Positions 11,555 through 64,000 of a stretch of DNA of 64,000 nucleotides are shown here, in pieces. Made by a program: the position numbers and the translations under genes. The number at the start of each line of letters is the position of its first letter. Within the stretch, counting starts at the first letter, position 1. Under the pieces are notes generated by a model that made no database searches, was not told where the DNA came from, and saw only the letters and a program-made list of their open reading frames with translations. The DNA comes from Liquidambar formosana (lineage: Eukaryota; Streptophyta; Magnoliopsida; Saxifragales; Altingiaceae): the NCBI GenBank assembly GCA_039720395.1, contig CM077821.1, positions 40,360,792-40,424,791 of the forward strand, written 5' to 3'.

Positions 11555-12912
11555 GGAAAGAGGAAAGAGGGTTAGTCCAAAACGCGGAAATGAATACGGC
11601 CATTTTTTTTTTTTTTTTTTTGGTCTCATGCAGCTAAGTCAAGATTCAATCTCAAGGTCTCTAAATAGAGATTTGAATTTTCTTTTTGTTTCGTGAAGCT
11701 AGGTCAAGACTCGATCTCAAGGTCTCCAAATAGAGATTTGAAATCCTGAGCCAACAAGGTTGGTTGTACAGTGGCAAAATTGGGCTAATTTTCAATGCAC
11801 ATTTTTTTCTAATGTAGCACTGCTTGAAAACAACCTTCTCTCCCTTTAAAGTAAAGAGAGGTGCCACCATTAGTTGACGTTGGGATTACTTCCACCATGA
11901 TAGTATATTTGAAATGAAACCTTTCTATACTTCTAAATGAAAGATTAAGCCATCCTTACTCAATACAATACCTAAAAATCAACGAGAATTTCATATACCC
12001 AAGGAAAGAGGAAAGAGGGTTGGTCCATAACGCGGAAATGAATACGGCTAATTTTCTTTTTGTTTCATGCAACTAGGTCAAGATTCGATCTCAAGGTCTC
12101 CAAATAGATATTTGAATTTTCTTTTTATTTTGTGCAGCTAGGTCAAGACTCGATCTCAATGTCTCCAAATAGAGATTTGAAATCCTAAGCCAGCAAGGTT
12201 GGTTGTACAGTGGAAAAATTGGGCTAATTTTCAATGCACACTTTTTTCTACTATAGCACTACTTGAAAACAACCTCTTCTCCCTCTAAAGTAAAGAGAGG
12301 TGCCATTAAGCCAAGAGACCATTAGTTGACATATTGGGATTACTTCCACCGTAATAGTATATTTGAAATGAAACCTTTCTATACTTTTAAATGAAAGATT
12401 AAGCCATCCTTACTCAGTACAATACCTTAAAAATCAACGAGAATTTCATGTACCCAAGGAAGAGGAAAGAGGGTTGGTCTATAACGCGGAAATGAATATG
12501 GCTGATTTTCTTTTTGTTTCATGCAGTTAAGTCAAGATTCGATCTCAAGGTATCCAAATAGAGATTTGAATTTTCTTTTTGTTTCGTGTAGCTAGGTCAA
12601 GACTCGATCTCAAGGTTTCCAAATAGAGATTTGAAATCCTGAGCCAGCAAGGTTGGTCGTATAGTGGCAAAATTGGGCAAATTTTCAATGCACATTTCTT
12701 TCTACTATAGCACTACTCTGAAAACAACCTCCTCTCCCTTTAAAGTAAAGAGAGGTGCCATTGAATCAGGAGACCATTAGTTGACATTGGGATTACTTCC
12801 ACCATGATAGTATATTTGAAACGAAACCTTTCTATATTTTTAAATGAAAGATTAAGCTATCTTTACTCAGTGCAATACCTAAAAATCAACAAGAATTTCA
12901 TGTACCCAAGGA
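11555..12912. repeat. Three-unit tandem repeat, about 450 bp each
   Basis: Units at about 11555-12002, 12003-12457 and 12458-12912. Each begins GGAAAGAGGAAAGAGGGTT (unit 3 lacks one A), continues with ACGCGGAAATGAATA and ends ATTTCAT(A/G)TACCCAAG. Inside each unit a shorter segment (GATCTCAAGG ... CAAATAGAGATTTGAA) is itself doubled. The periods are 448 and 455 bp. No conserved open frame runs through all three, so I see no gene. Confidence 0.85.
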
Positions 12913-13549
12913 AAAATCCTAAAAGGAGCATTCCCATACCCATGGAGGAAGCAAAATTATGTTTCTTAAAATGGAATTTTCATATAAAAAATCTCGTGCA
13001 AGAAAAACAATTTTTTTTTTTCCTAACTTCTTTATTGGGCTAGCCCAACTCACACGTTCAAAACAGTTGTTGTCAAATCAGCTTTGCTTGCTTCCACATT
13101 CAAATTTTTGAATAGTCTCCATTGCTGCCTTACGTATGGCATGAAGTTGTAATTTAGACCTAATATAAATTGACGTATTCAATGTCTATCATAGAGCATG
13201 TCACCACCGAGGGGAACCTGGTTAGAACCCTGGTCAACGGGATACGTAAATGACAGTTTTACCCTTTTTCTTACTTAAGGCTTAATATTACTTAATACAA
13301 TGCTTGTAACTAAGGTTCCCTGCAGAACAAAAAGGTCAAGTAACAAAAGTGGTTGTCCCTACGCAACTTTCAATGATTTACCCATTGATGCTCCTATCCG
13401 ATTCTTTCGGTCTTCCTTCAAACCAACCAATTTGTTTGTTCCATGTGGGTTAATTAGTGAAATTTCTTAATTAACAAGTTTATTAAAATAATATAAGCTT
13501 ACATTAGGCTTGGTCTAATGATACCTTGTGCTCAATATCAAAGCAAATA

Positions 13550-24849: not shown

Positions 24850-25071
24850 TAGGGGTGCAAAATGGTTATATATATTATACTTCATATATAACTATTATTA
24901 AATAAATAATAACACTTTCAATAAAGTTATTACCTTTTTTTTAGAAAAAACAAGAACTGGTCCTTTTTTGTCAGTCCGGTCCAATACAATTTTCGGTTCG
25001 ATTCTGATCTAATTTTTTAAGGTTCCGAATTAATTCAGTCCGGTCCAGGCCCAGACCGATTTGCACCCCTA
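24850..25071. mobile_element. hAT-type MITE with 8-bp target duplication
   Basis: A 222-bp element with ends TAGGGGTGCAAA and TTTGCACCCCTA, flanked on both sides by CTTATAAG (24842-24849 and 25072-25079). The 8-bp duplication and TAGGG-type termini identify a hAT non-autonomous element. The interior is AT-rich, with a GGTCCGGT-like subterminal stretch and no coding capacity. Confidence 0.9.
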
Positions 25072-42460: not shown

Positions 42461-43231
42461 CTATATTGATTTAATATCACAATTTGTACACCATAAAGGA
42501 GAAGTTCTCAATGGTATTGAAGAGTTACAACATACCTCCAATCGATCATGAAACTCGGCTTCATTAGTCTTTAACATTACAGGCAGAGGAAAACACACCC
42601 CTTTCTCCACACAACACTGGTGCCTAGGCTTTATCCTATTCTCTAAACTAAACGAGAAGTATTGAGGGAACTCCTTCAACTCCTTCAATTCCCTCCCCAT
42701 TTCCACCACAAAGTAATCGAATTTCGGCTCGAAATTGCCCTTTATACTGTAACAAAACAGCTGAGGAAACCTCCTCACCATCGACACCGCGTCTCGCCGC
42801 GAAAACCCAATCTTTTCCAGGTATTCGATTCTGGGTATTAGCTTTTCTTCGACGCTGCACGATAGAAGAGAGGTGTGCCGGTTCACCTCCGATATGCCGA
42901 TGCTTTGGAGGAAGTAAAGGGTGGGGCGGAGGCGGCGGTCGACGCTGGAGGCGAGCAACCGCGGCCGCCGGTTGATCACGCGGCGGATGTCGGAGCCCTC
43001 GACGCGGGCCTCGCGGAGGAGGAAGGTGAAGACGGGGACGATGTCGGATACCTTGGAAGCGAGGAGCTGGGGGCACATGCCGCAGATGCGTCGGAGCTCG
43101 GGGGCGGTGAAGCCCATGGAGGTGACGAACTCGACGGTGGATTTGACATCGGCAGAGGAGGCGGAGACGACGGGAGGGTGGGCGGAGATGAGGGAGAGGA
43201 AGTCGATGCCGACGGATTCGAGGTAGAGCAT
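42461..43231 (-). CDS. mTERF-family organelle gene-expression protein
   Basis: A single-exon open frame of 256 aa, GC-rich at its 5' end. It carries repeated mTERF helical motifs of about 30 residues: SMGFTAPELRRICGMCPQLL, VINRRPRLLASSVDRRL, LQSIGISEV, LEKIGFSRRDAVSMVRRFPQ and ELKEFPQYFSFSLENRI, ending CVEKGVCFPLP. Plant mTERFs act in chloroplast or mitochondrial transcription, splicing or termination. The short intronless form is like the mTERF10/11 group (resemblance from memory). Oddity: the frame stays open upstream of Met at 43231 to about 43393 with transit-peptide-like sequence (rich in S, T, P) but no Met, while a plausible start (43455) lies in another frame. An organelle-targeted product would need that frame offset resolved. 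Confidence 0.85.
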   Translation of the reverse strand: MLYLESVGIDFLSLISAHPPVVSASSADVKSTVEFVTSMGFTAPELRRICGMCPQLLASKVSDIVPVFTFLLREARVEGSDIRRVINRRPRLLASSVDRRLRPTLYFLQSIGISEVNRHTSLLSCSVEEKLIPRIEYLEKIGFSRRDAVSMVRRFPQLFCYSIKGNFEPKFDYFVVEMGRELKELKEFPQYFSFSLENRIKPRHQCCVEKGVCFPLPVMLKTNEAEFHDRLEVCCNSSIPLRTSPLWCTNCDIKSI

Positions 43232-43752
43232 TTTCTCTTGGAATAGGGAGTGGGGAGGAGGGGGAGGGAGGTGGTGGGACGGTGGAGGAATGGAGGGGAT
43301 ATCGGGCGTTTTGAGGGGTTTGGTGGGAGGGAGGGGGATGGTTGTTTTGGAAGAAAATGTGGGAAAGAGGAGGTTTCTGGACGAGAAAGTGAGGGAAAAT
43401 TAGGTTTAGGGAAGGGATTGTTTGGGTGGGAGGAAAAATGGATGGTTTCTTGCATTGTGTTTTTGTGATTGGTTTATGGGTTAGATCTACATGGTTGGAT
43501 TGCGAGGGAATGTTATTGTTCAGGTTGGGACACAGGGAGTGGGGCGTGTGTGAGCAACGGATAAGGCTTGGAAAATTATGATTTGATGAGTGTGAGCGTG
43601 CTATCTGGAAATCCGAGGCTTCCACGAGTGGGGATAAAGAGTCACAGTAACGCGATGGGGAGAAGACAGCGAAGTGGCCCAAAGGCCGAGAGTCCAACCC
43701 TCTGGCCTACAAGCTTTCCATAGGCCATTGTGATCAACTCATTTTTGGATGT

Positions 43753-47282: not shown

Positions 47283-48549
47283 GATCAAGTGCAGACCATT
47301 TGAGTTGAGATCGTGTGGCTCAAAGTCGTCCATGTTAACACATGAAAGCCACAGTGTATGTGTTGAATTTTTATTTTTTTTGGGTTACGCCTTTCACTTA
47401 TGATGAAGACAACTCAACTTAAATTGGAAAATAAATTTTTTAAGGGTAATACTGCTTAGAAATTATTGTTATACCAAACTCAAAATGTTGCCCTGCTACA
47501 CACTATAATTTTGTTAAAAGAGAAATGGGTCTTTTTTTTCCTTTTGGGGGACGCTAAGGAGGGAAATGGGTCATTTATTTCTCTATGTTTCCTAGGTTGC
47601 GTTCATCCTCTGCGGAATATAGAAGTCTCGGGAACTTAACAATTTAAAATTTTGGAAATCTCGAGAATTCATAATATTCCATAATTTGTGATTTTGTGTA
47701 TTTTCTTCTTCTTTGAATCTGGATATTTTATATAGTAGAGCCTTATTGTTTACTAACTTCGTGTCATTTTTATGGTTAAAGAGTGTTTTATATCATCTAA
47801 ATATGGGGCTTAATGACTTTAAATACTTTTTATTTGACACAAAAAAAAAGGCCTTTTTAAAGAAATTATGGGACTTTTTTTTTGAGGGGGTGTTTGCATA
47901 CTTACATATGTTTTTAGACGTAAATGATTGCGGCGATGACAATGTGACGACAAGACCACTATGACCCTATGCCTAGAATGTTTAAAATCATTTCGTGACA
48001 TGGAAGTCCAACCATGCTACTGTGGCCATGAATTTAGGTTGATTAGCTAAAAATTGGTTTTTATGTTCTCCTTAGAGTGGTGGTTGGTGACTTCGTGGGA
48101 TGGAAGGCCATGTGTTAGGTAGCACACAGATTAATTTAATTTGGATACTTATAGCCATTTGATTCCAATCAACCTCGTTAAATTACATAAGATTCCAATT
48201 AACTGGGATAAAATTATATGATTAGAAATTATTTTATCAAAATTGAATGTAATTTGATGATCTCTTTATTTGATTAGGTAGGATTTAATTGATAGAAAAT
48301 GCGTGTAAAAAGTCTAACTCTTATCCAACATTTTTGTTTTAATTAATGCAATAGTTAACATGATATGTCCTGTCAACGCATGGTAAAAGTGCAACCAAAA
48401 AAAAAAAAAACTTCTAGCAAAGTTTAAAATTTAAAATTCAAAATACGCACTCTTTTATTATATTTGTGGGTGGTTTTTTAGGCTATGTCAATTATCACGC
48501 GAGGTCGTGAGTTAAAACAAACATAGATGGACAAAAGATGGGCAAAGGA
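47280..48549. other. Intergenic, left flank of the viral unit, no gene seen
   Basis: AT-rich; the short open frames show no recognisable motif. Confidence 0.6.
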
Positions 48550-48557
48550 GTTGAAAT
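48550..48557. repeat. Left 8-bp target-site duplication of the viral unit
   Basis: GTTGAAAT lies immediately before TAGGGATGGC and is repeated at 63719-63726 immediately after GCCATCCCTA. Confidence 0.85.
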
Positions 48558-48675
48558 TAGGGATGGCAATATACGACCCGATCTACGGAAAATAGACTGT
48601 ATTTACCCTTCAGAATTTGGGATTTGCCTTCCTAGTATTGCTCTGTTCTGTTCTGATAGTAGGAATAACTTATGC

Positions 48676-48681
48676 AATAAA
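48676..48681 (+). promoter_or_regulatory. Possible poly(A) signal in the left arm
   Basis: AATAAA between the outer end and the primer site. If the viral circle was opened between promoter and primer site, it would lie about 350 nt downstream of the RNA start. The right arm has the mirror copy. A chance match is possible in this AT-rich sequence. Confidence 0.35.
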
Positions 48682-48964
48682 ATATGTAGTGTAATCATTA
48701 GTGGTTGTTGTAGAATTAAATAGCTTTGGAAAATTGCCGGTAGGAATGAAGTTCTTCCTTGGTTAGAATCTTTTTCTAATATAATAGTTATAATAATATT
48801 TTGTTGAAAATTATATAATAGCATGTTTTAAATGGTTTATGTATTTCGCATGATTTAAGTTGTGTGTGTTTGTAGCATCCATCCGTAGTTTATGTTGTAT
48901 ATGAATGTAAATTATTAGCTGAAGTTCCTGCAGCTTCCTGTTCTGTGTGTGTGTTGCTTTTTAC

Positions 48965-48976
48965 TGGTATCAGAGC
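48965..48976 (+). promoter_or_regulatory. tRNA-Met primer-binding site, left arm
   Basis: TGGTATCAGAGC, complementary to the 3' end of plant initiator tRNA-Met, 214 bp before the polyprotein ATG. It is the minus-strand DNA start site of Caulimoviridae. Confidence 0.9.
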
Positions 48977-49189
48977 ATCTAGGTTAGCTGTTAGCAGAAC
49001 CTTAAATTAGCAAAATTATCTTGTTTATTTGTTAATCGTTTAGAAAACTAGTTAAGATATTTTAGTTTATCTGTAAACCTTAAAACAACCTTGAATAGGG
49101 AGTACCGAGGCCTTGACTTTGTTGAGAGGTAGTTGGGAGAACATAAATCCTTCTCAGTTGAGTCGGCAACTTTGTAGGAAAACCTAGTC

Positions 49190-52100
49190 ATGGAAGAATT
49201 AAGGTGCATAGGTGAATTAAATAATCAAACTAGTGACTATAAACATTTAGCACATGTGCAAGATGAAGATGCTAATATAGGTAATGTTAGCCGTACATTA
49301 AACTATGTAGTTGATAGTTTATCAGGAGTATTTAGTAAATTAGTAAAAATTGAAAAAACCCAAAAAAAAATTAGTGATAAAATTAATATGATAAGTGAAA
49401 TACAAAATATAGACTTAAAGGATGAGACAAAAGGTCTAATCCAAAATTTAGAAAATAGTCTGAAAAACAATTCAGAAACTACACTTATGATAAAAGAAAA
49501 CTATAGGGAAGAAATTCCTAGACTATATTTTGGAACAGAAATTATGATGTTTAAAACAAATAAACATCGTAAAGATTTTGAAGCAATTAAAGAAATATTA
49601 GAATATTGGAAAACCCGATATATAAAAGAAGATGATTATGAAGAACGTAATAAGCTACTTAAACAAATGCAAGAATTATATTCAGCCAATGAAGAACTTA
49701 TGACTGAGTATAATTATGAACTAGCTCTTCAAATAGAAGATTCTAGTGAATCAGATAATGAGTCAGAAATTTCTTTTATGCCAAACAGCGTAAAAGAAGA
49801 AAGCTCAGAAGATGAGCAAGAAGGTAAAAAATTTGGTTTATCATCAAGTGAAAACAACTCTGAAGGTACAAGTAGTACTTCGGTAGATGAAGAAATAATC
49901 ATTGATTCTGATAAAGAGAACAATGATGACACTAAAGGCAATAATGACCCTCAAGACTCTAAAAAAAGAAAAGAGATTGAGACGGATGAGGAAGAAAAAA
50001 TACTTCCTAGAGGTCAAAGGATTAATTTTGAATCACCTATATATGATGACCCTTATGATGATGATCCGGTCCCGATGCAAATTGAAGATTTAAAACCTTT
50101 AAAAGATGAAGGTTCTACTTCTACATCAGAACCAAAACCTTCAACGACCATACGCTCAGATTTAAACAAAATCAATGTTACTGCAGGAGGAGTCTATTTA
50201 GACTTAAAAAATGTTGATTTTAAAAATTATGATCAAGCATTAAGAGAATGGGCACAATCAATGTCCATTGTCATAAATACATATAAAAGCAGTTGGTCTA
50301 AAGAAAAATTTTTAGACTACATCTGTGCAACTCTCCAAGGAGATTGCTTAAACTTCCTTAGAAGATGGGAAGTCTCTGATGAAGGTAAACATGAAAAAGC
50401 TAGTTTACTTAATGAATTTAATTCATTTGATAAGATATTAAATGATTTTGCACAAATTCTAAGGAGAGAATTTTGTGGAATTAAATTTGAAGAACAAGAA
50501 GAAATTCACAATGAATATATGCTAACAAAGGCAAGAATATGTAATATATGTGAATTTAAACCTTTTGCAAAATTTTATCAGGAATATTACCATAAACTTA
50601 ACCCTCCAAAAACAGAGTTTTGGTTAGGTCAATTTTTCTACAAATTACCCTCACCATGGGATGAAATTTGTAGCGATGGATATCAAGAATTCTTAAAAAG
50701 TTCTAACGGTGGAAAAGACACCCTAGGAGCAAGAATTCAATTTGTTGAAAGAACTATTACTAAACATTGCATGACACAAAAGGCTGCCAAGCAAGTGAAA
50801 GGTCAACTTAGTGAAAAATGCTGTACTAAAATTATGCAAGAACAGTGGGAATTTGGTTGTAAAAAATCAACCCCTTATAAGAAAAGAAGTAAATTTAGGA
50901 AATATAAATTTGTGAAATGGAAAGGTAAAAAACCTAAGCCTCAGAAAAAATATGTACGAAAAAGAAAACAAACATTTAAAAGAAAATCTAAATGTAAATG
51001 TTTTATATGTAATGAAGAAGGCCATATAGCTCCACAATGTCCTAAAAAAGGGAAAAGTGGTAAACAAATGATAAAATTTCTAGAAGAAAAACAATTAGAA
51101 ATTTTAGTTGGGGAAGAAGTCTCCGACACAGATTCAATAATCTATGAGGTTCAATCAGAATCCGAAAGTGAAAGTGAAGATAATTCAGACATGATTTTTA
51201 TGATGTCTGAAAAAAGCGAAAATAAAGAAATTTTTGAAGCCATTCCAAACAAGGAATTTAATCTCATAAAATTAGGAGATGTTTTAGGTGAAGAAACATC
51301 TATGGACGAAATAAATTTTGAAAAATTTGATAAAATTAAAGCTATCAAAAAAGAAGAACTCTATCAAATTTCAAAATTTAATATCTGGCAAGGAAGAATG
51401 TTTGAGCAATTTAGTGGAAATGCAACCGCTAAAGCCACTGAAGATGAAATGATAGAAATCCCTCTATTTGATAAAGATAAAATTAAAAGGCTTAAACAAA
51501 AGCATCCAAAAATTCGATATATACATATAGGAATTATTCAAATAGAAATAACAGCACTATTCAGAATAGGATTAGATACTCCTATTCTAATAGTCGTCTT
51601 AGATAAAAGATTTGAAGACCCTGTTAAAGCACTAATAGGTGGAATACAATCAAATCTAGTATCTGGACAAGTTTGGTTTAAAGTTAAACCAAATTATTTT
51701 ATATCAATTGAGGATCCAAATATTTGTGACACGATAAAAATTCGTATCCAAACTAGAGGAATAGATATGAAAAGAAATAGCTATAATTTATCAGTTCAAT
51801 GGAAAGCAATCCATGAACTAACAAATTTTACAAAAACATCAATAAAAGAAATTGATAAAAATATGATCGAATTATTTGAACCACGAGCATTCGACACTGA
51901 AATTCAACCAAGATTAATAAATTGGAAAGATTTGGAAATACCAAGCTCTTGGTTAGTAAAAGAATTTACCGATAACACTAAAGAAAAATTCTATAAAACA
52001 ATAGAATTCCAATCATCAGGAAATAATCTTTATTTCACTGATAAACGTAGAAATAGTATAGAAATACTAGACAGAGAATCAATGTGGTCAACATCAACAT

Positions 52101-54161
52101 CTAAAAAAGACGATGAAAATAAGAAAAATGAAAAAGGCAAGGCCATTGCAATAAAAAATGTGCAAATGCCTATACTTCCAGGTACGAATTACCTTGAAGA
52201 ACAAAAATCTGTAGCATTTCAACAGATTAAAATTGAAAGTAAATATCCAGAACAAATAATCTTTAGTTACCAACAAGGTAAGAAAAGATACATGTATGTT
52301 CTTGGAAAATTTAATTTCAAAAACTATAAACCATATGTTTTGTCTATTTTACTAGACACTGGTGCCACAACCAGTGCTGCTAGGTATAATGCCTTACCCG
52401 AACATCTATGGGTAAAAATGAAAAATCCCATAGCTGCTAGAGGCATTGATGGTAACGAAACCTTTATTACTTTTAAAGCAAAAATATTCCCATTTGGTTA
52501 GGAAACACAAAGTTTTTTATACCAAAAATACTTTGTTTTCCGCAAATGCATGGTGACATAATATTGGGAAATAATTTTATTGAAAATTATATGCCCTTTA
52601 TTGTCAACCGTGATCATGTGATTCTAACTTTTAAACAAGAGTCCGTTAGAATTCCTATCTTACCACAACATAAACATGTTTGTGAAAAAGGATTTGCGCC
52701 AGTCAAGCGTGGTGAAATGACACCAATAATTAAATCTCTAGATGAAACTCATTGGATTTATAAAAAATTACATCCAAATTTTTCAGAAGATCCATTAAAA
52801 CTTTGGAAAAAATCTCCAAGGTTCTGTGAATTAAAACTAATTGATTCTAATAAAATAATTAGAGTTAAACCAATGGTCTATACTAAAAAAGATATAGACG
52901 AATTTGAAATTCAACTTGAAGAATTATTAAAGAAAGGGTTAATTGAAGAAACAACAAGTCCACATTCTAGCCCCGCCTTTATGGTAATGAACCATAATGA
53001 GATGAAACGAGGAAAAGCTAGAATGGTCATCAATTATAAAAGATTAAATCAAAATCTTGAATTCGATGGATATTTTATTCCTAGAAAAGATGTTTTAGTT
53101 AAACAAACTATGAACTCTAAATGGTTCAGTAAATTTGATTGTAAATCAGGCTTTTGGCAAGTAAAGCTAACTGATGAGTCAAAACCATTGACTGCTTTTA
53201 GTGCACCATATGGACATTATCAATGGACTGTTATGCCATTTGGAATTTGTAACGCACCACAAATATTTCAAAGATGGATGGACAATATGTTCAAACATCT
53301 TCATAAATTCTGTTTGGTATATATAGATGATGTTTTAGTATTCTCTAAAACGAGAGAAGAACACAAAAAACATCTTGAAATAGTATCAGATATTTTCCTA
53401 AAACATGGAATAATTCTGAGTCCTAAGAAAATAGAAGTAGAAAAGGAAGAAATTGAATATTTAGGAGTAATATTAAACCAATCAGGTATTCAACTCCAAA
53501 ATCATATTATTATGAAAATAAAAGATTTTCCAAATAATATTACAACTCTCAAAGAACTACAGAGCTTTTTAGGTCTACTAAATTATGGAAGAAATTTTGT
53601 AAAAAATTTATCCAAAAAGGAAAAACCATTAATAGAAAAACTCAAGAATATTCCTAAAAGAGGAAATTCAGACGTAAAAATAGAATGGACTAAAGAAGAT
53701 TCAAAATTAGTTCAGGAAATCAAAGATATGTTTAAAGATACCCCAAAAGTTTATTTTCCAAAAGAAAATGAACAATTAATTCTAGAAACCGATGCTAGTG
53801 ATGAATTTTGGGGAGCAGTATTAAAAGCGATTCCAGAAAATTCTAAAAAAGAAGAAATCTGTGGATATGCTTCAGGAAAATTTAAACCAAATGAAATTAA
53901 GTATATAACTTATGAAAAAGAATTATTAGCCATTAAGAATGGAATAAAAAGATTTCACATTTATTTGGCTACCTGTTAAATTTTTAATTCGCACCGATAA
54001 TAAGTCAGTTCGTGATTTTATTAAATCCAAAAAAGGAGAAGAAAATGCAAGACGGGTTAGATGGTATAATTTTATTTGTCAATATACTTTTGATATAATG
54101 CATATTAAAGGAACTAACAATTTTCTTGCAGATTATTTGTCCTAGAAATTTCAATGAGTAA
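49190..54161 (+). pseudogene. Pararetrovirus polyprotein ORF, frameshifted copy (left arm)
   Basis: Same polyprotein as the open copy at 58116-63086, but broken. The first 1103 codons (to the TAG at 52499-52501) run through capsid-like region, CCHC knuckle (Cys604, Cys607, His612, Cys617), movement-like region and protease motif DTGAT at 1056. A one-base loss in the A run near 52480-52484 ends the frame. The next open piece, 52546-53979, carries the protease tail, reverse transcriptase (YIDDVLVF at 53320) and most of RNase H, and stops after an extra T at 53970. A further extra T is at 54143, shortly before the natural stop at 54159-54161. All breaks are relative to the other arm. It cannot yield a full-length product; sequencing error is an alternative to true decay. 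Confidence 0.9.
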
Positions 54162-55523
54162 TCAAAATCCCGATAGAGGGAAGAAGCCCTTAAATTTCCA
54201 AGCAGGAAAAGGCCGTGGGAAACCATCTCAATTTTATAAAGGAGAAGGCAGCTCAAACCAAAGCAGCTTTCTAAAAATCCCGCAGATCATGGGTAATCCA
54301 CCTAATGTTCCTATCTATGTTATGCCTGTCAGCTATAAACAAATGGCTGAAATGTCCCAAAACTTTAACCAGCAAGTAAATTTTCAACCCCGTCCTGAAA
54401 CGAATCAGGAAATAAAAGACTTTCTATAATCCAGGTTTAAACCCAAAAACCTATCACCTACTTAATAATATTTGGAAGACTCATTGCCTAAACCAAAAGG
54501 CTGAGTTTAGAAGAAGCATGTCTCAGCTTGCTGAATATTTAAAAACACATGAAGAAAAGCAAACATATCTTCAAAATGAATTTGCCAAATTCATTAAACA
54601 AGTGGATTGGCTTGAAGAATTTTCTGAAGAAAAAATTAACACTCTTGTTAATTTAATGAATTTTACTGAACAACAGGAAAATTCATATTTTAACAAAGCT
54701 TTAAGAATATGTTTTTTCAATAAAGCTAAAGCAGCTTTGCCTAAAGAAATTTTCTCTGATATTCAAAATCGTGTGGAATACAATGAGATTAAACCACTTC
54801 TCATTGAATTCGCTGAAAATATTTATCTCGAAGAAGATATTCCAAAATTGAATTTTGCCATTAATCATGAACTTTGGAATATTGAAGCAATCGAATGGGG
54901 AGCCGTTGGAACAATTGTTTTCGACCCCCTGTGTTCTACCTCCTTTGTTAATTTTCCTGCAATGATCAAAACAATGATCTACTGCGTTGTGAAAAATTAC
55001 AAATGGAGTAGATACTTAAAATTTAAAATAGTCAGTAATGCAGGTTGGCGACAAAGAGAATTATTCTTTCAACCTTACCAAATCTGGAGTTTGGAACTTG
55101 CATCTGAAGAAGATCTTATAAGAAATGAAGATCTTAAATATTTGGACAAAGCAGAAAATCTAGATTTGTCCACTTATTATATTCAAAACTATGTTGCACT
55201 CAAAAGAGAGGCACAAAGAATTTGCAATGCTCATCCCTTATACAGTTATGATTAGTGACGGAAGAAGATTATTTTGTACAAACTTAATAACTTCTTACGT
55301 GGAATCTGTTGCTCAAAGAATAGCAGCAGTGGATTTCATTGATAATATTTGCCATGGAAAAACCATTGGTCCAATAGAGCTAACAATGGATGCGGAAGAG
55401 ATGGTGGGCCAACAAGACCTCTTGGAAAACACACTCAATTCAGAAGAAGACACTGAAGCTACCTTTTGGAATTCTCTTGATGAGGTGGAACTTCACAACA
55501 TCGAGAATATGATGGAAGGATAA
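54154..55523 (+). pseudogene. Pararetrovirus ORF2, frameshifted copy (left arm)
   Basis: It starts at ATG 54154, overlapping the end of the polyprotein region, as in the open copy. An extra T near 54421-54423 ends the first frame at 54429. A second extra T at 55234 separates the middle piece (from about 54430) from the C-terminal piece ending at 55523. Otherwise the sequence follows the 455-aa ORF of the right arm. Function unknown. Confidence 0.85.
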
Positions 55524-55671
55524 AACGCCAAACAGGCTTAATCCATTCGGACACGTATGGATAGTGCGTGGCAGTTGATAACACTGGGAACGGAGCTATT
55601 TCAGAGAAGATATAAAAAATATTTTCTGAAAGGCGTCAAAGAAGCGGCAAAGCACTAAAGCAAGAAAGCAT

Positions 55672-55882
55672 CACGTGAGCAAGGAAGGAATTCCATCCTT
55701 GGAACTTGGAAGATGAAGAATCATTTCTCTACGACATGTGAAAGACATGTGAAAAGCTTAACATGTGATCATGAAAAACATGTGAACACCATGTGAATAT
55801 TTGAATATTGTTTTTTGACTTTTCCTTGTAAATTTTTTATCCATCTAAGTCGGTTCTTGTAGTCCAGAGTCTGTCTATATAT
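55672..55882 (+). promoter_or_regulatory. Viral promoter region, left arm
   Basis: After ORF2 there is a G-box CACGTG (55672-55677), then five CATGTG words between about 55734 and 55797, four of them ACATGTG, and a TATA box TATATAT (55876-55882). This is the expected place for the pregenomic RNA promoter of a caulimovirid. It points right, toward the centre of the inverted repeat. Transcription start would be about 55,905-55,910. Confidence 0.7.
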
Positions 55883-56130
55883 GGGGAAGCTTTTCTTTTG
55901 TTCGGCAGAGTTTTTGAGAGTTAGAGTTGGAGAAGAAAAGTTTTTCAGAGAGAATTAGTAAGTTTCTTGGTTTCAGAGTCTGTACAGAGAGTGAGTGAGC
56001 CTTCACTGTCCGGTGAAGAAGAGGAGTTTTATGTAAGTTTTCTTTTATCTTGTGTAAATTATATAATTATTAATAATATATGAGGTTGCTTTTGTAAATA
56101 TGGTATTTTGTTTTTATACGTATTTTCGTA

Positions 56131-56148
56131 ACTTATCAGTCGATAAGT
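56131..56148. repeat. Centre of the 7.6-kb inverted repeat
   Basis: ACTTATC-AGTC-GATAAGT. The four central bases are the only unpaired ones; position x on the left pairs with 112279 minus x at the centre, drifting to 112276 at the outer ends because the left arm has three net extra bases. Confidence 0.95.
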
Positions 56149-56396
56149 TACGAAAATACGTATAAAAACAAAATACCATATTTACAAAAGCAACCTCATA
56201 TATTATTAATAATTATATAATTTACACAAGATAAAAGAAAACTTACATAAAACTCCTCTTCTTCACCGGACAGTGAAGGCTCACTCACTCTCTGTACAGA
56301 CTCTGAAACCAAGAAACTTACTAATTCTCTCTGAAAAACTTTTCTTCTCCAACTCTAACTCTCAAAAACTCTGCCGAACAAAAGAAAAGCTTCCCC

Positions 56397-56607
56397 ATAT
56401 ATAGACAGACTCTGGACTACAAGAACCGACTTAGATGGATAAAAAATTTACAAGGAAAAGTCAAAAAACAATATTCAAATATTCACATGGTGTTCACATG
56501 TTTTTCATGATCACATGTTAAGCTTTTCACATGTCTTTCACATGTCGTAGAGAAATGATTCTTCATCTTCCAAGTTCCAAGGATGGAATTCCTTCCTTGC
56601 TCACGTG
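56397..56607 (-). promoter_or_regulatory. Viral promoter region, right arm
   Basis: Mirror image of 55672-55882: TATA box at 56397-56403, CATGTG cluster at about 56,482-56,545, G-box at 56,602-56,607. It points left, toward the centre and toward the other copy's promoter. Confidence 0.7.
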
Positions 56608-56755
56608 ATGCTTTCTTGCTTTAGTGCTTTGCCGCTTCTTTGACGCCTTTCAGAAAATATTTTTTATATCTTCTCTGAAATAGCTCCGTTCCCAGTGTTA
56701 TCAACTGCCACGCACTATCCATACGTGTCCGAATGGATTAAGCCTGTTTGGCGTT

Positions 56756-58123
56756 TTATCCTTCCATCATATTCTCGATGTTGTGAAGTTCCACCTCATC
56801 AAGAGAATTCCAAAAGGTAGCTTCAGTGTCTTCTTCTGAATTGAGTGTGTTTTCCAAGAGGTCTTGTTGGCCCACCATCTCTTCCGCATCCATTGTTAGC
56901 TCTATTGGACCAATGGTTTTTCCATGGCAAATATTATCAATGAAATCCACTGCTGCTATTCTTTGAGCAACAGATTCCACGTAAGAAGTTATTAAGTTTG
57001 TACAAAATAATCTTCTTCCGTCACTAATCATAACTGTATAAGGGTGAGCATTGCAAATTCTTTGTGCCTCTCTTTTGAGTGCAACATAGTTTTGAATATA
57101 ATAAGTGGACAAATCTAGATTTTCTGCTTTGTCCAAATATTTAAGATCTTCATTTCTTATAAGATCTTCTTCAGATGCAAGTTCCAAACTCCAGATTTGG
57201 TAAGGTTGAAAGAATAATTCTCTTTGTCGCCAACCTGCATTACTGACTATTTTAAATTTTAAGTATCTACTCCATTTGTAATTTTTCACAACGCAGTAGA
57301 TCATTGTTTTGATCATTGCAGGAAAATTAACAAAGGAGGTAGAACACAGGGGGTCGAAAACAATTGTTCCAACGGCTCCCCATTCGATTGCTTCAATATT
57401 CCAAAGTTCATGATTAATGGCAAAATTCAATTTTGGAATATCTTCTTCGAGATAAATATTTTCAGCGAATTCAATGAGAAGTGGTTTAATCTCATTGTAT
57501 TCCACACGATTTTGAATATCAGAGAAAATTTCTTTAGGCAAAGCTGCTTTAGCTTTATTGAAAAAACATATTCTTAAAGCTTTGTTAAAATATGAATTTT
57601 CCTGTTGTTCAGTAAAATTCATTAAATTAACAAGAGTGTTAATTTTTTCTTCAGAAAATTCTTCAAGCCAATCCACTTGTTTAATGAATTTGGCAAATTC
57701 ATTTTGAAGATATGTTTGCTTTTCTTCATGTGTTTTTAAATATTCAGCAAGCTGAGACATGCTTCTTCTAAACTCAGCCTTTTGGTTTAGGCAATGAGTC
57801 TTCCAAATATTATTAAGTAGGTGATAGGTTTTTGGGTTTAAACCTGGATTATAGAAGTCTTTTATTTCCTGATTCGTTTCAGGACGGGGTTGAAAATTTA
57901 CTTGCTGGTTAAAGTTTTGGGACATTTCAGCCATTTGTTTATAGCTGACAGGCATAACATAGATAGGAACATTAGGTGGATTACCCATGATCTGCGGGAT
58001 TTTTAGAAAGCTGCTTTGGTTTGAGCTGCCTTCTCCTTTATAAAATTGAGATGGTTTCCCACGGCCTTTTCCTGCTTGGAAATTTAAGGGCTTCTTCCCT
58101 CTATCGGGATTTTGATTACTCAT
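56756..58123 (-). CDS. Pararetrovirus ORF2, unknown function, open copy (right arm)
   Basis: 455 aa starting at Met 58123; the frame is open nine codons further upstream to another Met at 58150, but the start at 58123 overlaps the polyprotein stop by 8 bp (ATGAGTAA), a typical reinitiation arrangement. The N-terminal 90 residues are Gly/Lys/Asn/Gln-rich and probably disordered (GKGRGKPSQFYKGEG). The middle is helical and Glu/Lys-rich; the C terminus is acidic (NSEEDTEATFWNSLDEVEL). I see no zinc finger, polymerase or membrane segment. I do not recognise a transactivator-type (TAV) signature. A second ORF of unknown function is known from florendoviruses (knowledge of the genus), which is my best guess for affiliation. 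Confidence 0.8.
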   Translation of the reverse strand: MSNQNPDRGKKPLNFQAGKGRGKPSQFYKGEGSSNQSSFLKIPQIMGNPPNVPIYVMPVSYKQMAEMSQNFNQQVNFQPRPETNQEIKDFYNPGLNPKTYHLLNNIWKTHCLNQKAEFRRSMSQLAEYLKTHEEKQTYLQNEFAKFIKQVDWLEEFSEEKINTLVNLMNFTEQQENSYFNKALRICFFNKAKAALPKEIFSDIQNRVEYNEIKPLLIEFAENIYLEEDIPKLNFAINHELWNIEAIEWGAVGTIVFDPLCSTSFVNFPAMIKTMIYCVVKNYKWSRYLKFKIVSNAGWRQRELFFQPYQIWSLELASEEDLIRNEDLKYLDKAENLDLSTYYIQNYVALKREAQRICNAHPYTVMISDGRRLFCTNLITSYVESVAQRIAAVDFIDNICHGKTIGPIELTMDAEEMVGQQDLLENTLNSEEDTEATFWNSLDEVELHNIENMMEG

Positions 58124-61100
58124 TGAAATTTCTGGACAAATAATCTGCAAGAAAATTGTTAGTTCCTTTAATATGCATTATATCAAAAGTATATTGACAA
58201 ATAAAATTATACCATCTAACCCGTCTTGCATTTTCTTCTCCTTTTTTGGATTTAATAAAATCACGAACTGACTTATTATCGGTGCGAATTAAAAATTTAA
58301 CAGGTGCCAAATAAATGTGAAATCTTTTTATTCCATTCTTAATGGCTAATAATTCTTTTTCATAAGTTATATACTTAATTTCATTTGGTTTAAATTTTCC
58401 TGAAGCATATCCACAGATTTCTTCTTTTTTAGAATTTTCTGGAATTGCTTTTAATACTGCTCCCCAAAATTCATCACTAGCATCGGTTTCTAGAATTAAT
58501 TGTTCATTTTCTTTTGGAAAATAAACTTTTGGGGTATCTTTAAACATATCTTTGATTTCCTGAACTAATTTTGAATCTTCTTTAGTCCATTCTATTTTTA
58601 CGTCTGAATTTCCTCTTTTAGGAATATTCTTGAGTTTTTCTATTAATGGTTTTTCCTTTTTGGATAAATTTTTTACAAAATTTCTTCCATAATTTAGTAG
58701 ACCTAAAAAGCTCTGTAGTTCTTTGAGAGTTGTAATATTATTTGGAAAATCTTTTATTTTCATAATAATATGATTTTGGAGTTGAATACCTGATTGGTTT
58801 AATATTACTCCTAAATATTCAATTTCTTCCTTTTCTACTTCTATTTTCTTAGGACTCAGAATTATTCCATGTTTTAGGAAAATATCTGATACTATTTCAA
58901 GATGTTTTTTGTGTTCTTCTCTCGTTTTAGAGAATACTAAAACATCATCTATATATACCAAACAGAATTTATGAAGATGTTTGAACATATTGTCCATCCA
59001 TCTTTGAAATATTTGTGGTGCGTTACAAATTCCAAATGGCATAACAGTCCATTGATAATGTCCATATGGTGCACTAAAAGCAGTCAATGGTTTTGACTCA
59101 TCAGTTAGCTTTACTTGCCAAAAGCCTGATTTACAATCAAATTTACTGAACCATTTAGAGTTCATAGTTTGTTTAACTAAAACATCTTTTCTAGGAATAA
59201 AATATCCATCAAATTCAAGATTTTGATTTAATCTTTTATAATTGATGACCATTCTAGCTTTTCCTCGTTTCATCTCATTATGGTTCATTACCATAAAGGC
59301 GGGGCTAGAATGTGGACTTGTTGTTTCTTCAATTAATCCTTTCTTTAATAATTCTTCAAGTTGAATTTCAAATTCGTCTATATCTTTTTTAGTATAGACC
59401 ATTGGTTTAACTCTAATTATTTTATTAGAATCAATTAGTTTTAATTCACAGAACCTTGGAGATTTTTTCCAAAGTTTTAATGGATCTTCTGAAAAATTTG
59501 GATGTAATTTTTTATAAATCCAATGAGTTTCATCTAGAGATTTAATTATTGGTGTCATTTCACCACGCTTGACTGGCGCAAATCCTTTTTCACAAACATG
59601 TTTATGTTGTGGTAAGATAGGAATTCTAACGGACTCTTGTTTAAAAGTTAGAATCACATGATCACGGTTGACAATAAAGGGCATATAATTTTCAATAAAA
59701 TTATTTCCCAATATTATGTCACCATGCATTTGCGGAAAACAAAGTATTTTTGGTATAAAAAACTTTGTGTTCCCTAACCAAATGGGAATATTTTTTGCTT
59801 TAAAAGTAATAAAGGTTTCGTTACCATCAATGCCTCTAGCAGCTATGGGATTTTTCATTTTTACCCATAGATGTTCGGGTAAGGCATTATACCTAGCAGC
59901 ACTGGTTGTGGCACCAGTGTCTAGTAAAATAGACAAAACATATGGTTTATAGTTTTTGAAATTAAATTTTCCAAGAACATACATGTATCTTTTCTTACCT
60001 TGTTGGTAACTAAAGATTATTTGTTCTGGATATTTACTTTCAATTTTAATCTGTTGAAATGCTACAGATTTTTGTTCTTCAAGGTAATTCGTACCTGGAA
60101 GTATAGGCATTTGCACATTTTTTATTGCAATGGCCTTGCCTTTTTCATTTTTCTTATTTTCATCGTCTTTTTTAGATGTTGATGTTGACCACATTGATTC
60201 TCTGTCTAGTATTTCTATACTATTTCTACGTTTATCAGTGAAATAAAGATTATTTCCTGATGATTGGAATTCTATTGTTTTATAGAATTTTTCTTTAGTG
60301 TTATCGGTAAATTCTTTTACTAACCAAGAGCTTGGTATTTCCAAATCTTTCCAATTTATTAATCTTGGTTGAATTTCAGTGTCGAATGCTCGTGGTTCAA
60401 ATAATTCGATCATATTTTTATCAATTTCTTTTATTGATGTTTTTGTAAAATTTGTTAGTTCATGGATTGCTTTCCATTGAACTGATAAATTATAGCTATT
60501 TCTTTTCATATCTATTCCTCTAGTTTGGATACGAATTTTTATCGTGTCACAAATATTTGGATCCTCAATTGATATAAAATAATTTGGTTTAACTTTAAAC
60601 CAAACTTGTCCAGATACTAGATTTGATTGTATTCCACCTATTAGTGCTTTAACAGGGTCTTCAAATCTTTTATCTAAGACGACTATTAGAATAGGAGTAT
60701 CTAATCCTATTCTGAATAGTGCTGTTATTTCTATTTGAATAATTCCTATATGTATATATCGAATTTTTGGATGCTTTTGTTTAAGCCTTTTAATTTTATC
60801 TTTATCAAATAGAGGGATTTCTATCATTTCATCTTCAGTGGCTTTAGCGGTTGCATTTCCACTAAATTGCTCAAACATTCTTCCTTGCCAGATATTAAAT
60901 TTTGAAATTTGATAGAGTTCTTCTTTTTTGATAGCTTTAATTTTATCAAATTTTTCAAAATTTATTTCGTCTATAGATGTTTCTTCACCTAAAACATCTC
61001 CTAATTTTATGAGATTAAATTCCTTGTTTGGAATGGCTTCAAAAATTTCTTTATTTTCGCTTTTTTCAGACATCATAAAAATCATGTCTGAATTATCTTC

Positions 61101-63086
61101 ACTTTCACTTTCGGATTCTGATTGAACCTCATAGATTATTGAATCTGTGTCGGAGACTTCTTCCCCAACTAAAATTTCTAATTGTTTTTCTTCTAGAAAT
61201 TTTATCATTTGTTTACCACTTTTCCCTTTTTTAGGACATTGTGGAGCTATATGGCCTTCTTCATTACATATAAAACATTTACATTTAGATTTTCTTTTAA
61301 ATGTTTGTTTTCTTTTTCGTACATATTTTTTCTGAGGCTTAGGTTTTTTACCTTTCCATTTCACAAATTTATATTTCCTAAATTTACTTCTTTTCTTATA
61401 AGGGGTTGATTTTTTACAACCGAATTCCCACTGTTCTTGCATAATTTTAGTACAGCATTTTTCACTAAGTTGACCTTTCACTTGCTTGGCAGCCTTTTGT
61501 GTCATGCAATGTTTAGTAATAGTTCTTTCAACAAATTGAATTCTTGCTCCTAGGGTGTCTTTTCCACCGTTAGAACTTTTTAAGAATTCTTGATATCCAT
61601 CGCTACAAATTTCATCCCATGGTGAGGGTAATTTGTAGAAAAATTGACCTAACCAAAACTCTGTTTTTGGAGGGTTAAGTTTATGGTAATATTCCTGATA
61701 AAATTTTGCAAAAGGTTTAAATTCACATATATTACATATTCTTGCCTTTGTTAGCATATATTCATTGTGAATTTCTTCTTGTTCTTCAAATTTAATTCCA
61801 CAAAATTCTCTTCTTAGAATTTGTGCAAAATCATTTAATATCTTATCAAATGAATTAAATTCATTAAGTAAACTAGCTTTTTCATGTTTACCTTCATCAG
61901 AGACTTCCCATCTTCTAAGGAAGTTTAAGCAATCTCCTTGGAGAGTTGCACAGATGTAGTCTAAAAATTTTTCTTTAGACCAACTGCTTTTATATGTATT
62001 TATGACAATGGACATTGATTGTGCCCATTCTCTTAATGCTTGATCATAATTTTTAAAATCAACATTTTTTAAGTCTAAATAGACTCCTCCTGCAGTAACA
62101 TTGATTTTGTTTAAATCTGAGCGTATGGTCGTTGAAGGTTTTGGTTCTGATGTAGAAGTAGAACCTTCATCTTTTAAAGGTTTTAAATCTTCAATTTGCA
62201 TCGGGACCGGATCATCATCATAAGGGTCATCATATATAGGTGATTCAAAATTAATCCTTTGACCTCTAGGAAGTATTTTTTCTTCCTCATCCGTCTCAAT
62301 CTCTTTTCTTTTTTTAGAGTCTTGAGGGTCATTATTGCCTTTAGTGTCATCATTGTTCTCTTTATCAGAATCAATGATTATTTCTTCATCTACCGAAGTA
62401 CTACTTGTACCTTCAGAGTTGTTTTCACTTGATGATAAACCAAATTTTTTACCTTCTTGCTCATCTTCTGAGCTTTCTTCTTTTACGCTGTTTGGCATAA
62501 AAGAAATTTCTGACTCATTATCTGATTCACTAGAATCTTCTATTTGAAGAGCTAGTTCATAATTATACTCAGTCATAAGTTCTTCATTGGCTGAATATAA
62601 TTCTTGCATTTGTTTAAGTAGCTTATTACGTTCTTCATAATCATCTTCTTTTATATATCGGGTTTTCCAATATTCTAATATTTCTTTAATTGCTTCAAAA
62701 TCTTTACGATGTTTATTTGTTTTAAACATCATAATTTCTGTTCCAAAATATAGTCTAGGAATTTCTTCCCTATAATTTTCTTTTATCATAAGTGTAGTTT
62801 CTGAATTGTTTTTCAGACTATTTTCTAAATTTTGGATTAGACCTTTTGTCTCATCCTTTAAGTCTATATTTTGTATTTCACTTATCATATTAATTTTATC
62901 ACTAATTTTTTTTTGGGTTTTTTCAATTTTTACTAATTTACTAAATACTCCTGATAAACTATCAACTACATAGTTTAATGTACGGCTAACATTACCTATA
63001 TTAGCATCTTCATCTTGTACATGTGCTAAATGTTTATAGTCACTAGTTTGATTATTTAATTCACCTATGCACCTTAATTCTTCCAT
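58116..63086 (-). CDS. Pararetrovirus polyprotein ORF, open copy (right arm)
   Basis: 1656 aa without interruption. Order seen: N-terminal coiled-coil-like region (about 40-110), Ser/Glu/Asp-rich stretch (184-290), capsid-like core (about 346-570), basic region, CCHC zinc knuckle (Cys604, Cys607, His612, Cys617), 30K movement-protein-like region (about 745-925, with LDKRFEDP around Asp805), retropepsin-type protease (DTGATT at 1056), reverse transcriptase with YIDD at 1378-1381, and RNase H (Asp1535 in ETDASDEFWG) to the C terminus. This is the domain content of Caulimoviridae; no integrase is present. The two-ORF layout resembles Florendovirus. Capsid upstream of movement protein should be compared with named genera. 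No promoter lies upstream of it in this arm, so expression would depend on host sequence to the right. Confidence 0.9.
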   Translation of the reverse strand: MEELRCIGELNNQTSDYKHLAHVQDEDANIGNVSRTLNYVVDSLSGVFSKLVKIEKTQKKISDKINMISEIQNIDLKDETKGLIQNLENSLKNNSETTLMIKENYREEIPRLYFGTEIMMFKTNKHRKDFEAIKEILEYWKTRYIKEDDYEERNKLLKQMQELYSANEELMTEYNYELALQIEDSSESDNESEISFMPNSVKEESSEDEQEGKKFGLSSSENNSEGTSSTSVDEEIIIDSDKENNDDTKGNNDPQDSKKRKEIETDEEEKILPRGQRINFESPIYDDPYDDDPVPMQIEDLKPLKDEGSTSTSEPKPSTTIRSDLNKINVTAGGVYLDLKNVDFKNYDQALREWAQSMSIVINTYKSSWSKEKFLDYICATLQGDCLNFLRRWEVSDEGKHEKASLLNEFNSFDKILNDFAQILRREFCGIKFEEQEEIHNEYMLTKARICNICEFKPFAKFYQEYYHKLNPPKTEFWLGQFFYKLPSPWDEICSDGYQEFLKSSNGGKDTLGARIQFVERTITKHCMTQKAAKQVKGQLSEKCCTKIMQEQWEFGCKKSTPYKKRSKFRKYKFVKWKGKKPKPQKKYVRKRKQTFKRKSKCKCFICNEEGHIAPQCPKKGKSGKQMIKFLEEKQLEILVGEEVSDTDSIIYEVQSESESESEDNSDMIFMMSEKSENKEIFEAIPNKEFNLIKLGDVLGEETSIDEINFEKFDKIKAIKKEELYQISKFNIWQGRMFEQFSGNATAKATEDEMIEIPLFDKDKIKRLKQKHPKIRYIHIGIIQIEITALFRIGLDTPILIVVLDKRFEDPVKALIGGIQSNLVSGQVWFKVKPNYFISIEDPNICDTIKIRIQTRGIDMKRNSYNLSVQWKAIHELTNFTKTSIKEIDKNMIELFEPRAFDTEIQPRLINWKDLEIPSSWLVKEFTDNTKEKFYKTIEFQSSGNNLYFTDKRRNSIEILDRESMWSTSTSKKDDENKKNEKGKAIAIKNVQMPILPGTNYLEEQKSVAFQQIKIESKYPEQIIFSYQQGKKRYMYVLGKFNFKNYKPYVLSILLDTGATTSAARYNALPEHLWVKMKNPIAARGIDGNETFITFKAKNIPIWLGNTKFFIPKILCFPQMHGDIILGNNFIENYMPFIVNRDHVILTFKQESVRIPILPQHKHVCEKGFAPVKRGEMTPIIKSLDETHWIYKKLHPNFSEDPLKLWKKSPRFCELKLIDSNKIIRVKPMVYTKKDIDEFEIQLEELLKKGLIEETTSPHSSPAFMVMNHNEMKRGKARMVINYKRLNQNLEFDGYFIPRKDVLVKQTMNSKWFSKFDCKSGFWQVKLTDESKPLTAFSAPYGHYQWTVMPFGICNAPQIFQRWMDNMFKHLHKFCLVYIDDVLVFSKTREEHKKHLEIVSDIFLKHGIILSPKKIEVEKEEIEYLGVILNQSGIQLQNHIIMKIKDFPNNITTLKELQSFLGLLNYGRNFVKNLSKKEKPLIEKLKNIPKRGNSDVKIEWTKEDSKLVQEIKDMFKDTPKVYFPKENEQLILETDASDEFWGAVLKAIPENSKKEEICGYASGKFKPNEIKYITYEKELLAIKNGIKRFHIYLAPVKFLIRTDNKSVRDFIKSKKGEENARRVRWYNFICQYTFDIMHIKGTNNFLADYLSRNFNE

Positions 63087-63299
63087 GACTAGGTTTTCCT
63101 ACAAAGTTGCCGACTCAAATGAGAAGGATTTATGTTCTCCCAACTACCTCTCAACAAAGTCAAGGCCTCGGTACTTCCTATTCAAGGTTGTTTTAAGGTT
63201 TACAGATAAACTAAAATAACTTAACTAGTTTTCTAAACGATTAACAAATAAACAAGATAATTTTGCTAATTTAAGGTTCTGTTAACAGCTAACCTAGAT

Positions 63300-63311
63300 G
63301 CTCTGATACCA
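63300..63311 (-). promoter_or_regulatory. tRNA-Met primer-binding site, right arm
   Basis: TGGTATCAGAGC on the minus strand, 214 nt from the polyprotein ATG; mirror of 48965-48976. Confidence 0.9.
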
Positions 63312-63718
63312 GTAAAAAGCAACACACACACAGAACAGGAAGCTGCAGGAACTTCAGTTAATAATTTACATTCATATACAACATAAACTACGGATGGATG
63401 CTACAAACACACACAACTTAAATCATGCGAAATACATAAACCATTTAAAACATGCTATTATATAATTTTCAACAAAATATTATTATAACTATTATATTAG
63501 AAAAAGATTCTAACCAAGGAAGAACTTCATTCCTACCGGCAATTTTCCAAAGCTATTTAATTCTACAACAACCACTAATGATTACACTACATATTTTATT
63601 GCATAAGTTATTCCTACTATCAGAACAGAACAGAGCAATACTAGGAAGGCAAATCCCAAATTCTGAAGGGTAAATACAGTCTATTTTCCGTAGATCGGGT
63701 CGTATATTGCCATCCCTA

Positions 63719-63726
63719 GTTGAAAT
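63719..63726. repeat. Right 8-bp target-site duplication of the viral unit
   Basis: GTTGAAAT directly after GCCATCCCTA; same orientation as the copy at 48550-48557. Confidence 0.85.
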
Positions 63727-64000
63727 TTTGCATTGCATAACATCGGGGAAGAAAAAATCATAAAAGTAAAATATAAAAAATAAAAAACGCACACATATTA
63801 ACTAATAAACCACAAGAAATATAAATGGTTTGTAGATTTGTGTCTTAAAAAACAAAAGGTTTTAGATTTGACATTTCATTATCTCTTAAGGCCATGCTTT
63901 TTTTGTTAGAATGAAATGGGTAGGAATGGAATCTGATTCCATACTCAAAATAGTCTGGAATGGAATGAGATTGAAATAAACATTATAAAATGAATATCAT
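63727..64000. other. Right flank of the viral unit, no gene seen
   Basis: AT-rich. From about 63,892 the GAATGAAATGGG and GGAATGGAATC sequence resembles the end of another small transposon cut by the window edge. Confidence 0.4.

Follow-up and report, generated by a model that had tools for sequence, protein, structure and literature searches.

The window analyzed here is a 64,000-bp stretch of the Liquidambar formosana genome (assembly GCA_039720395.1, contig CM077821.1, positions 40,360,792–40,424,791), and at window positions 48558–63718 it contains a 15,161-bp element that is a palindrome of two caulimovirid genomes lying tail to tail. The sequence TAGGGATGGCAATATACGACCCGATCTACGG is present at both extremes of the element in inverted orientation (the ends are TAGGGATGGC). 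The element is probably one of a family of mirror-paired caulimovirids that entered the L. formosana chromosomes by a hAT-type reaction, by way of a hairpin-derived dimer. Its features, in window coordinates, are the following.

48550–48557, no strand: left target-site duplication, GTTGAAAT, read directly
48558–48581, plus strand: left hAT-like end, TAGGGATGGCAATATACGACCCGA, recognized by its conservation in a second subfamily, its genomic copies and its likeness to Ac/Ds
48558–56137, plus strand: left caulimovirid unit, head outward, with the polyprotein and second frames broken by frameshifts
48965–48976, plus strand: tRNA-Met primer-binding site, TGGTATCAGAGC, 407 bases inside the end (by motif)
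55876–55884, plus strand: TATA-like box (by motif) of a presumed pregenomic promoter that lies close to the tail and is directed towards the center
56119–56160, no strand: mirror center, CGTATTTTCGTAACTTATC-AGTC-GATAAGTTACGAAAATACG, at the same position as the center of the second subfamily
56142–63718, minus strand: right caulimovirid unit, head outward, from the alignment and its frames
56756–58177, minus strand: second frame, 473 amino acids, no Pfam match above the cut-off
58116–63098, minus strand: polyprotein frame with coat protein, zinc knuckle, movement protein, aspartic protease, reverse transcriptase and RNase H (Pfam)
63300–63311, minus strand: right-unit primer-binding site, read directly
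63695–63718, minus strand: right hAT-like end, from the sequence
63719–63726, no strand: right target-site duplication, GTTGAAAT, read directly

The two units (48558–56137 and 56142–63718, each ∼7.58 kb) align from end to end with 99.75% identity (7,581 columns, 14 mismatches, 5 gap openings) on either side of a 4-base spacer, AGTC, at 56138–56141. Since the whole insert is palindromic, its "terminal inverted repeats" are automatic, and the evidential weight lies with the TAGGG end and the 8-bp duplication. At a single specified pair of junctions, the local base composition gives an exact 8-mer match a chance of ∼5e-5. The window contains two YAGGG...CCCTR pairs flanked by an exact 8-bp duplication, against 0.1 per dinucleotide shuffle (20 shuffles, maximum 1). 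Fold-back misassembly appears a poor explanation of the palindrome, because the outer flanks differ, the arm substitutions are scattered and the same architecture recurs with other flanks. At an assumed plant substitution rate, the 14 arm substitutions in ∼7.58 kb would put the age of this copy in the order of 100,000 years; this figure is not evidence for any of the readings below.

The polyprotein of the right unit, searched against Pfam in four pieces, has the domain set of the Caulimoviridae: coat protein, 30K movement protein, A3 protease, reverse transcriptase (RT) and RNase H. The tRNA-Met primer-binding site typical of that family is also present, and Pfam found no integrase in the pieces that cover both right-unit frames, in agreement with the Caulimoviridae; in all these respects the element resembles other endogenous caulimovirids. 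The second frame occupies what we take to be the place of the transactivator gene in caulimoviruses. A 1,570-base ENA contig encodes a protein 80% identical to it; this contig may be the transcript of some related virus or element in a relative. No direct repeats of at least 40 bp are present in window 47500–64000, and the element is thus not built like a long terminal repeat (LTR) retrotransposon. In an RT tree of 29 rows it groups with Cornus florida and two other rows and lies outside the caulimo-, cavemo- and solendovirus rows, in a tree that holds no Xendovirus, Florendovirus or Petuvirus references. A Gossypium australe RT match (74% over 52%) tentatively places it near the cotton "Xendovirus" group mentioned in PMC5766536.

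The ends of the element are like those of hAT transposons, as an earlier note on this DNA had proposed. The short YAGGG-type inverted repeat TAGGGATGGCAATATACG lies at both outer ends, and the first 8 element bases are those of the Ac/Ds end, C/TAGGGATGAAA; according to PMC3260210, Ac/Ds elements have such ends and make 8-bp target duplications. Like the hAT transposons Ac/Ds of maize, Hermes and Kat1, the element is flanked by 8-bp duplications, and its ends begin C/TAGGGATG as do those of Ac/Ds (PMC3260210). A literature text search with the end sequence gave no transposon paper by title among the matches listed. Between one element of each of the two main subfamilies described below, the first 24 end bases are identical at 23 of 24 positions and the primer site at 12 of 12, while the leader between them aligns at only about half, with many gaps; the RT piece is 93% identical between the subfamilies. 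This comparison of sequences indicates that the end is kept by selection, and a leader that fortuitously ends in TAGGG is unlikely because the 24-bp end stays conserved while the leader diverges. Folding of the leader was tried as a test of a natural viral leader and was uninformative: of 200 shuffles, 197 equal or exceed the pairing of tail and head as separate strands; against 100 shuffles the head by itself folds better by ∼1 standard deviation, and the tail by itself shows no advantage. Elsewhere in the window, at 24850–25071, lies a hAT-like miniature element of 222 bp that has TAGGGGTGCAAA ends and is flanked by an exact CTTATAAG duplication.

The 18-mer end TAGGGATGGCAATATACG has 85 exact occurrences in the assembly (0 for the reversed control), and 29 of the 33 end neighbors within 30 kb are arranged plus-then-minus, with heads outward and spans of 5.8–29 kb. 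The left 461-bp end piece gave 40 scored places (the best 40 of 59 candidates), of which 32 start no more than 5 bases from TAGGG, seven start further inside and the remaining one is the left end of the window element together with its flank. For the RT piece, the best 40 of 288 candidate places were scored, and 28 of them form 14 converging pairs. There are two main subfamilies, one like the window element (subfamily 1) and a second that is ∼93% identical to it in the RT piece and has a different leader. The earlier note held that viral relatives with TAGGGATGGC in the middle of an unbroken leader would count against a transposon end. Within this genome, none of the 40 scored end matches apart from the window's left one continues outward beyond TAGGG, and the viral tail tip is nowhere followed within 30 bases by an exact TAGGGATGGC; the model proposed below itself expects TAGGGATGGC inside the leader of a free virus. 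A search of viral contigs for relatives matched three stretches, none confirmed.

Target-site duplications were assessed by pairing neighboring facing ends and comparing the 8 bases outside each; there were 35 pairs, the window's included, and five distant-subfamily pairs on C3 and C14 had been excluded beforehand. Exact 8-bp duplications flank 23 of the 35 pairs, all 23 different from one another (one, CTCTCTCT, falls within a simple repeat), and four more pairs match at 7 of 8 positions, so that 27 of 35 score at least 7/8. The first 18 pairs comprised ten at 8/8, four at 7/8, one at 6/8 and three lower, and none of their 306 mismatched left/right combinations exceeded 5/8; the next 13 gave eleven at 8/8, one at 4/8 and one at 2/8, and the last 4 gave two at 8/8, one at 5/8 and one at 1/8. 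For the C1 51.92 pair the outer of two tandem right ends was used. At that locus (C1:51928918–51928966) two tandem copies of the right end are separated by 48 bases, and the target duplication lies beyond the outer copy. The earlier note had suggested looking for other copies with the same ends and different 8-bp duplications, and the 85 exact ends and 23 distinct exact duplications are what it anticipated; its view that the already formed pair inserted as one unit is likewise supported, since the duplications lie outside complete pairs.

These counts bear on a reading in which end-joining put inverted viral DNA into a staggered break and the TAGGG at the end of its leader is fortuitous, or in which the palindrome is a misassembly. 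Two hypotheses of caulimovirid integration are widely held, break repair and recombination with LTR elements (PMC10377300). The reading would have to account for the same boundary at dozens of loci together with exact, differing 8-bp duplications at 23 of 35 pairs, and arms and flanks differ in ways that a fold-back assembly error would not produce; we regard it as scarcely credible. Chance, LTR-type integration and misassembly were all rejected on the boundary and duplication counts.

Some copies are of interest in their own right. Internally deleted derivatives, each with 2.6-kb mirror arms and viral sequence between them, are present at C14:21808775–21814657, with a perfect 8-bp duplication AGCGCATG, and at C4:40219819–40225648. 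An autonomous hAT element with the same 18-bp end was also considered; two short elements read whole are internally deleted viral pairs, and nine lone ends that were fetched carry the second-subfamily head for at least 29 of 30 bases. Such an element is possible among the remaining copies, whose interiors are only partly covered. A more distant subfamily at C3:44.89–44.96 Mb and C3:46.62–46.64 Mb consists of 1.1- and 2.1-kb pairs that are ∼80–84% identical at their ends; these pairs have common flanks and were apparently multiplied by segmental duplication.

The coding sequences separate two ways in which such a family could have spread. In one, a single pair arose once inside hAT ends and then moved as DNA only, a composite transposon spreading by cut-and-paste whose arms are kept alike by gene conversion; the same ends, center position and 8-bp duplications at many loci are what it would give, and large palindromes can indeed convert between their arms. 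The pattern of substitution is different from what a passenger would show. When one arm from each of 15 subfamily-2 elements is compared, the variants common to two or more elements fall 5, 2 and 47 times on codon positions 1, 2 and 3, and a passenger would not give 47 of 54 shared variants at third positions. Variants seen in one subfamily-2 element only are distributed 32, 21 and 48, and arm-to-arm differences within 14 elements 35, 25 and 28 (third positions 28 of 88; 31, 23 and 19 without the C9 30.2 element). A Fisher test of third versus other positions, shared variants against arm differences, gives p ∼5e-11, and pN/pS between subfamily-2 elements is 0.08. Because shared variants are rich in third positions and arm differences are not, these sequences indicate a source that replicated through a working RT under purifying selection, with inserted copies that then drift and decay; the source could be either an infectious virus or a host-confined retro-element. 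The shared variants under purifying selection on RT thus speak against the earlier note's idea that two genomes, endogenous beforehand, were simply moved by a DNA-transposon pathway.

Arm comparisons point in the same direction. In a 1,461-base protease and RT piece, 12 of 14 elements have arms that are nearer to one another (0–17 differences) than to any other element; together with the selection contrast, this fits cut-and-paste of a single old composite less well than the making of a fresh dimer on a replicating template at each insertion. Two subfamily-1 elements have unhomogenized arms, with 28 and 16 differences in ∼1,455 bases, and five subfamily-1 elements differ between arms by 12–16 in ∼400 at the ends, which is not expected if conversion keeps the arms of a DNA-only composite alike; as subfamily-1 arms have drifted apart, strong gene conversion is not needed. 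One element does have an arm with a run of another lineage's variants, as conversion would give. In this element (C9:30179682–30194687) most of the 17 arm differences cluster where one arm has the other lineage's variants, and the cluster could be due to either template switching or conversion from another element. On balance, spread as a DNA-only composite seems quite improbable.

The mirror center suggests how the dimers may have formed. In the window and in three subfamily-2 elements the center follows directly after CGTATTTTCGTAAC. Three of 12 fetched centers (subfamily 2) read CCCACGA-C-TCGTGGG with a one-base spacer, a fourth has the one-base form after an 11-base duplication, and the window center is TTATC-AGTC-GATAA. 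Hermes nicks DNA one base outside the transposon end, an offset from which a one-base center is predicted. The hAT transposases Hermes and Kat1 leave the flanking DNA hairpin-capped and the transposon end with a free 3′ end (PMC4763223), and such a flank hairpin would explain the mirror center of the element.

The TAGGG ends, the duplications and the selection contrast are seen in the sequences; an episome, a transposase and a hairpin step are inferred, and would act as follows. The virus would carry a single hAT-like end in its leader, between the promoter and the primer-binding site. A host hAT transposase acting in trans would cut viral DNA there, so that the TAGGG side has a free 3′ end and the viral tail is closed by a hairpin. 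Copying round the hairpin would then yield a mirror dimer that has a very small center and is bounded by TAGGG on both outer sides; in this way the single end would become a complete transposon, and the transposase would insert this dimer with an 8-bp duplication. Such a pararetrovirus lineage, with one acquired hAT end, would be using the host hAT transposase as a stand-in integrase, the hairpin supplying the two-ended mirror dimer; we put this detailed account forward tentatively, as a possibility that falls a little short of an even chance.

Alternatively, the mirror dimer might arise by snap-back self-priming at an inverted repeat in the tail during viral DNA synthesis, with the hAT transposase acting only in insertion. 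The centers are short inverted repeats at one place (TTATC/GATAA; CCACGA/TCGTGG), as snap-back would require. Cauliflower mosaic virus reportedly forms self-primed hairpin DNAs, and none appeared by title among the matches listed in a literature search. A 15-kb cotton locus of two inverted copies further shows that mirror pairs can occur (PMC10458927). Snap-back alone leaves the one-base centers unexplained, and it needs separate causes for the hAT end and the dimer; it is unlikely, although clearly deserving of weight.

Several observations weigh against hAT-type entry by way of a hairpin-derived dimer. No Pfam transposase match was found in the right-unit frames searched, and the pieces searched thus lack the hAT transposase of its own that an autonomous hAT element has. 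Eight of the 35 pairs have no duplication of at least 7/8 (one of them scores 6/8 and one 5/8), the low scores of the C10 and C15 pairs have no explanation, and the five excluded distant-subfamily pairs score 8/8, 7/8, 3/8, 3/8 and 1/8. The window spacer is 4 bases rather than one, in the other eight of the 12 fetched centers the structure is one-sided, shifted or deleted, and a further three tips, found afterwards, also differ. The tail-to-head junction of a viral circle (tail tip, 0–30 bases, TAGGGATGGC) has 0 exact occurrences in the assembly, so that adjacency of the tail tip to TAGGG in the virus is a presumption of the model. Arm-to-arm pN/pS is 0.52 and not 1 (25 synonymous, 54 nonsynonymous), though codon positions are flat, and there is little sign of selection between subfamily-1 elements (pN/pS 0.53; shared variants 2, 3 and 12). 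In the protease/RT piece the arms of the C6 21.2 element resemble another element more closely than they resemble one another, and for the window element the two distances are equal. In the end region, where 17 of the first 18 pairs were compared, the arms are mutually closest in only 11.

Some of these points have possible explanations. Transition bias may be the reason that arm pN/pS lies below 1. Five of the six end-region exceptions are subfamily-1 elements whose arms have drifted apart in a star-like tree, from which two distant rows were left out. The excluded C3 pairs look by eye like duplicates of one insertion, with flanks in common. Two low-scoring pairs span >90 kb and are possibly no true pairs, and two low-scoring C4 pairs have, by eye, swapped partners in reverse-complemented form, exactly what a single inversion joining two elements would give. 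The latter are C4:40219819–40225648 and C4:40292862–40307674, with swapped reverse-complemented 8-bp flanks around an inversion of ∼75–80 kb that apparently occurred by recombination between the palindromic elements. At C10:19391161–19399418 the outer flanks are nearly identical host sequence in inverted orientation, so that the palindrome includes host DNA, through either a later inverted duplication or an assembly fault.

The precedent for a fusion of virus and DNA transposon is Teratorn of medaka, a piggyBac-like transposon fused to a virus. That virus is reportedly a herpesvirus, a large DNA virus with its own transposase; unlike the L. formosana element, Teratorn is neither a reverse-transcribing genome nor a mirror dimer. 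The closest precedent for the mirror pair is eCPRVE of upland cotton, which is ∼15 kb long and has two inverted caulimovirid copies that are 98.98% alike, with primer-site motifs on both outer sides (PMC10458927). It differs from the L. formosana family in being one 15-kb locus common to two cotton species, plus smaller fragments, and its account, as far as the text available goes, mentions no target duplication or transposon ends (PMC10458927). The L. formosana element for its part differs from hAT transposons in having no transposase match, a caulimovirid interior in mirror duplicate and a source copied under RT selection. No hAT-bounded caulimovirid was found by title or abstract start in the open-access literature searched, a scope that takes in few subscription papers.

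Judged by the TATA-like box, the presumed promoters near the tails face each other across the center, so their transcripts should be self-complementary, and each would read into the antisense of the other unit, so that neither unit has this viral promoter upstream of its primer site. The locus would therefore be expected to feed small-RNA silencing rather than to make virus. In tomato, caulimovirid loci that are rearranged and inverted are reported to be sources of 22-nt small RNAs (PMC10377300), and the same would be expected here. The findings suggest that a virus lacking an integrase entered chromosomes by a route borrowed from DNA transposons. If so, the element is copied by reverse transcription and integrated in hAT fashion, neither a usual retrotransposon nor a usual DNA transposon, and would join these two classes of mobile DNA; it would also show one transposon end made into two through hairpin copying, and it predicts strong hairpin-RNA silencing loci. 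The precise ends, target duplications, recurring center and selection signal make the question of integration testable locus by locus, and arm divergence is a built-in clock of each palindrome.

Outside the element, the window contains a host gene frame of the mTERF family (relatives of chloroplast transcription termination factors) at 42461–43399, whose protein is 99% identical over 75% of its length to one from L. formosana, three tandem copies of a ∼450-base repeat at 11560–12914, and an inverted repeat at 3669–4220 whose 167-base arms are 89% complementary.

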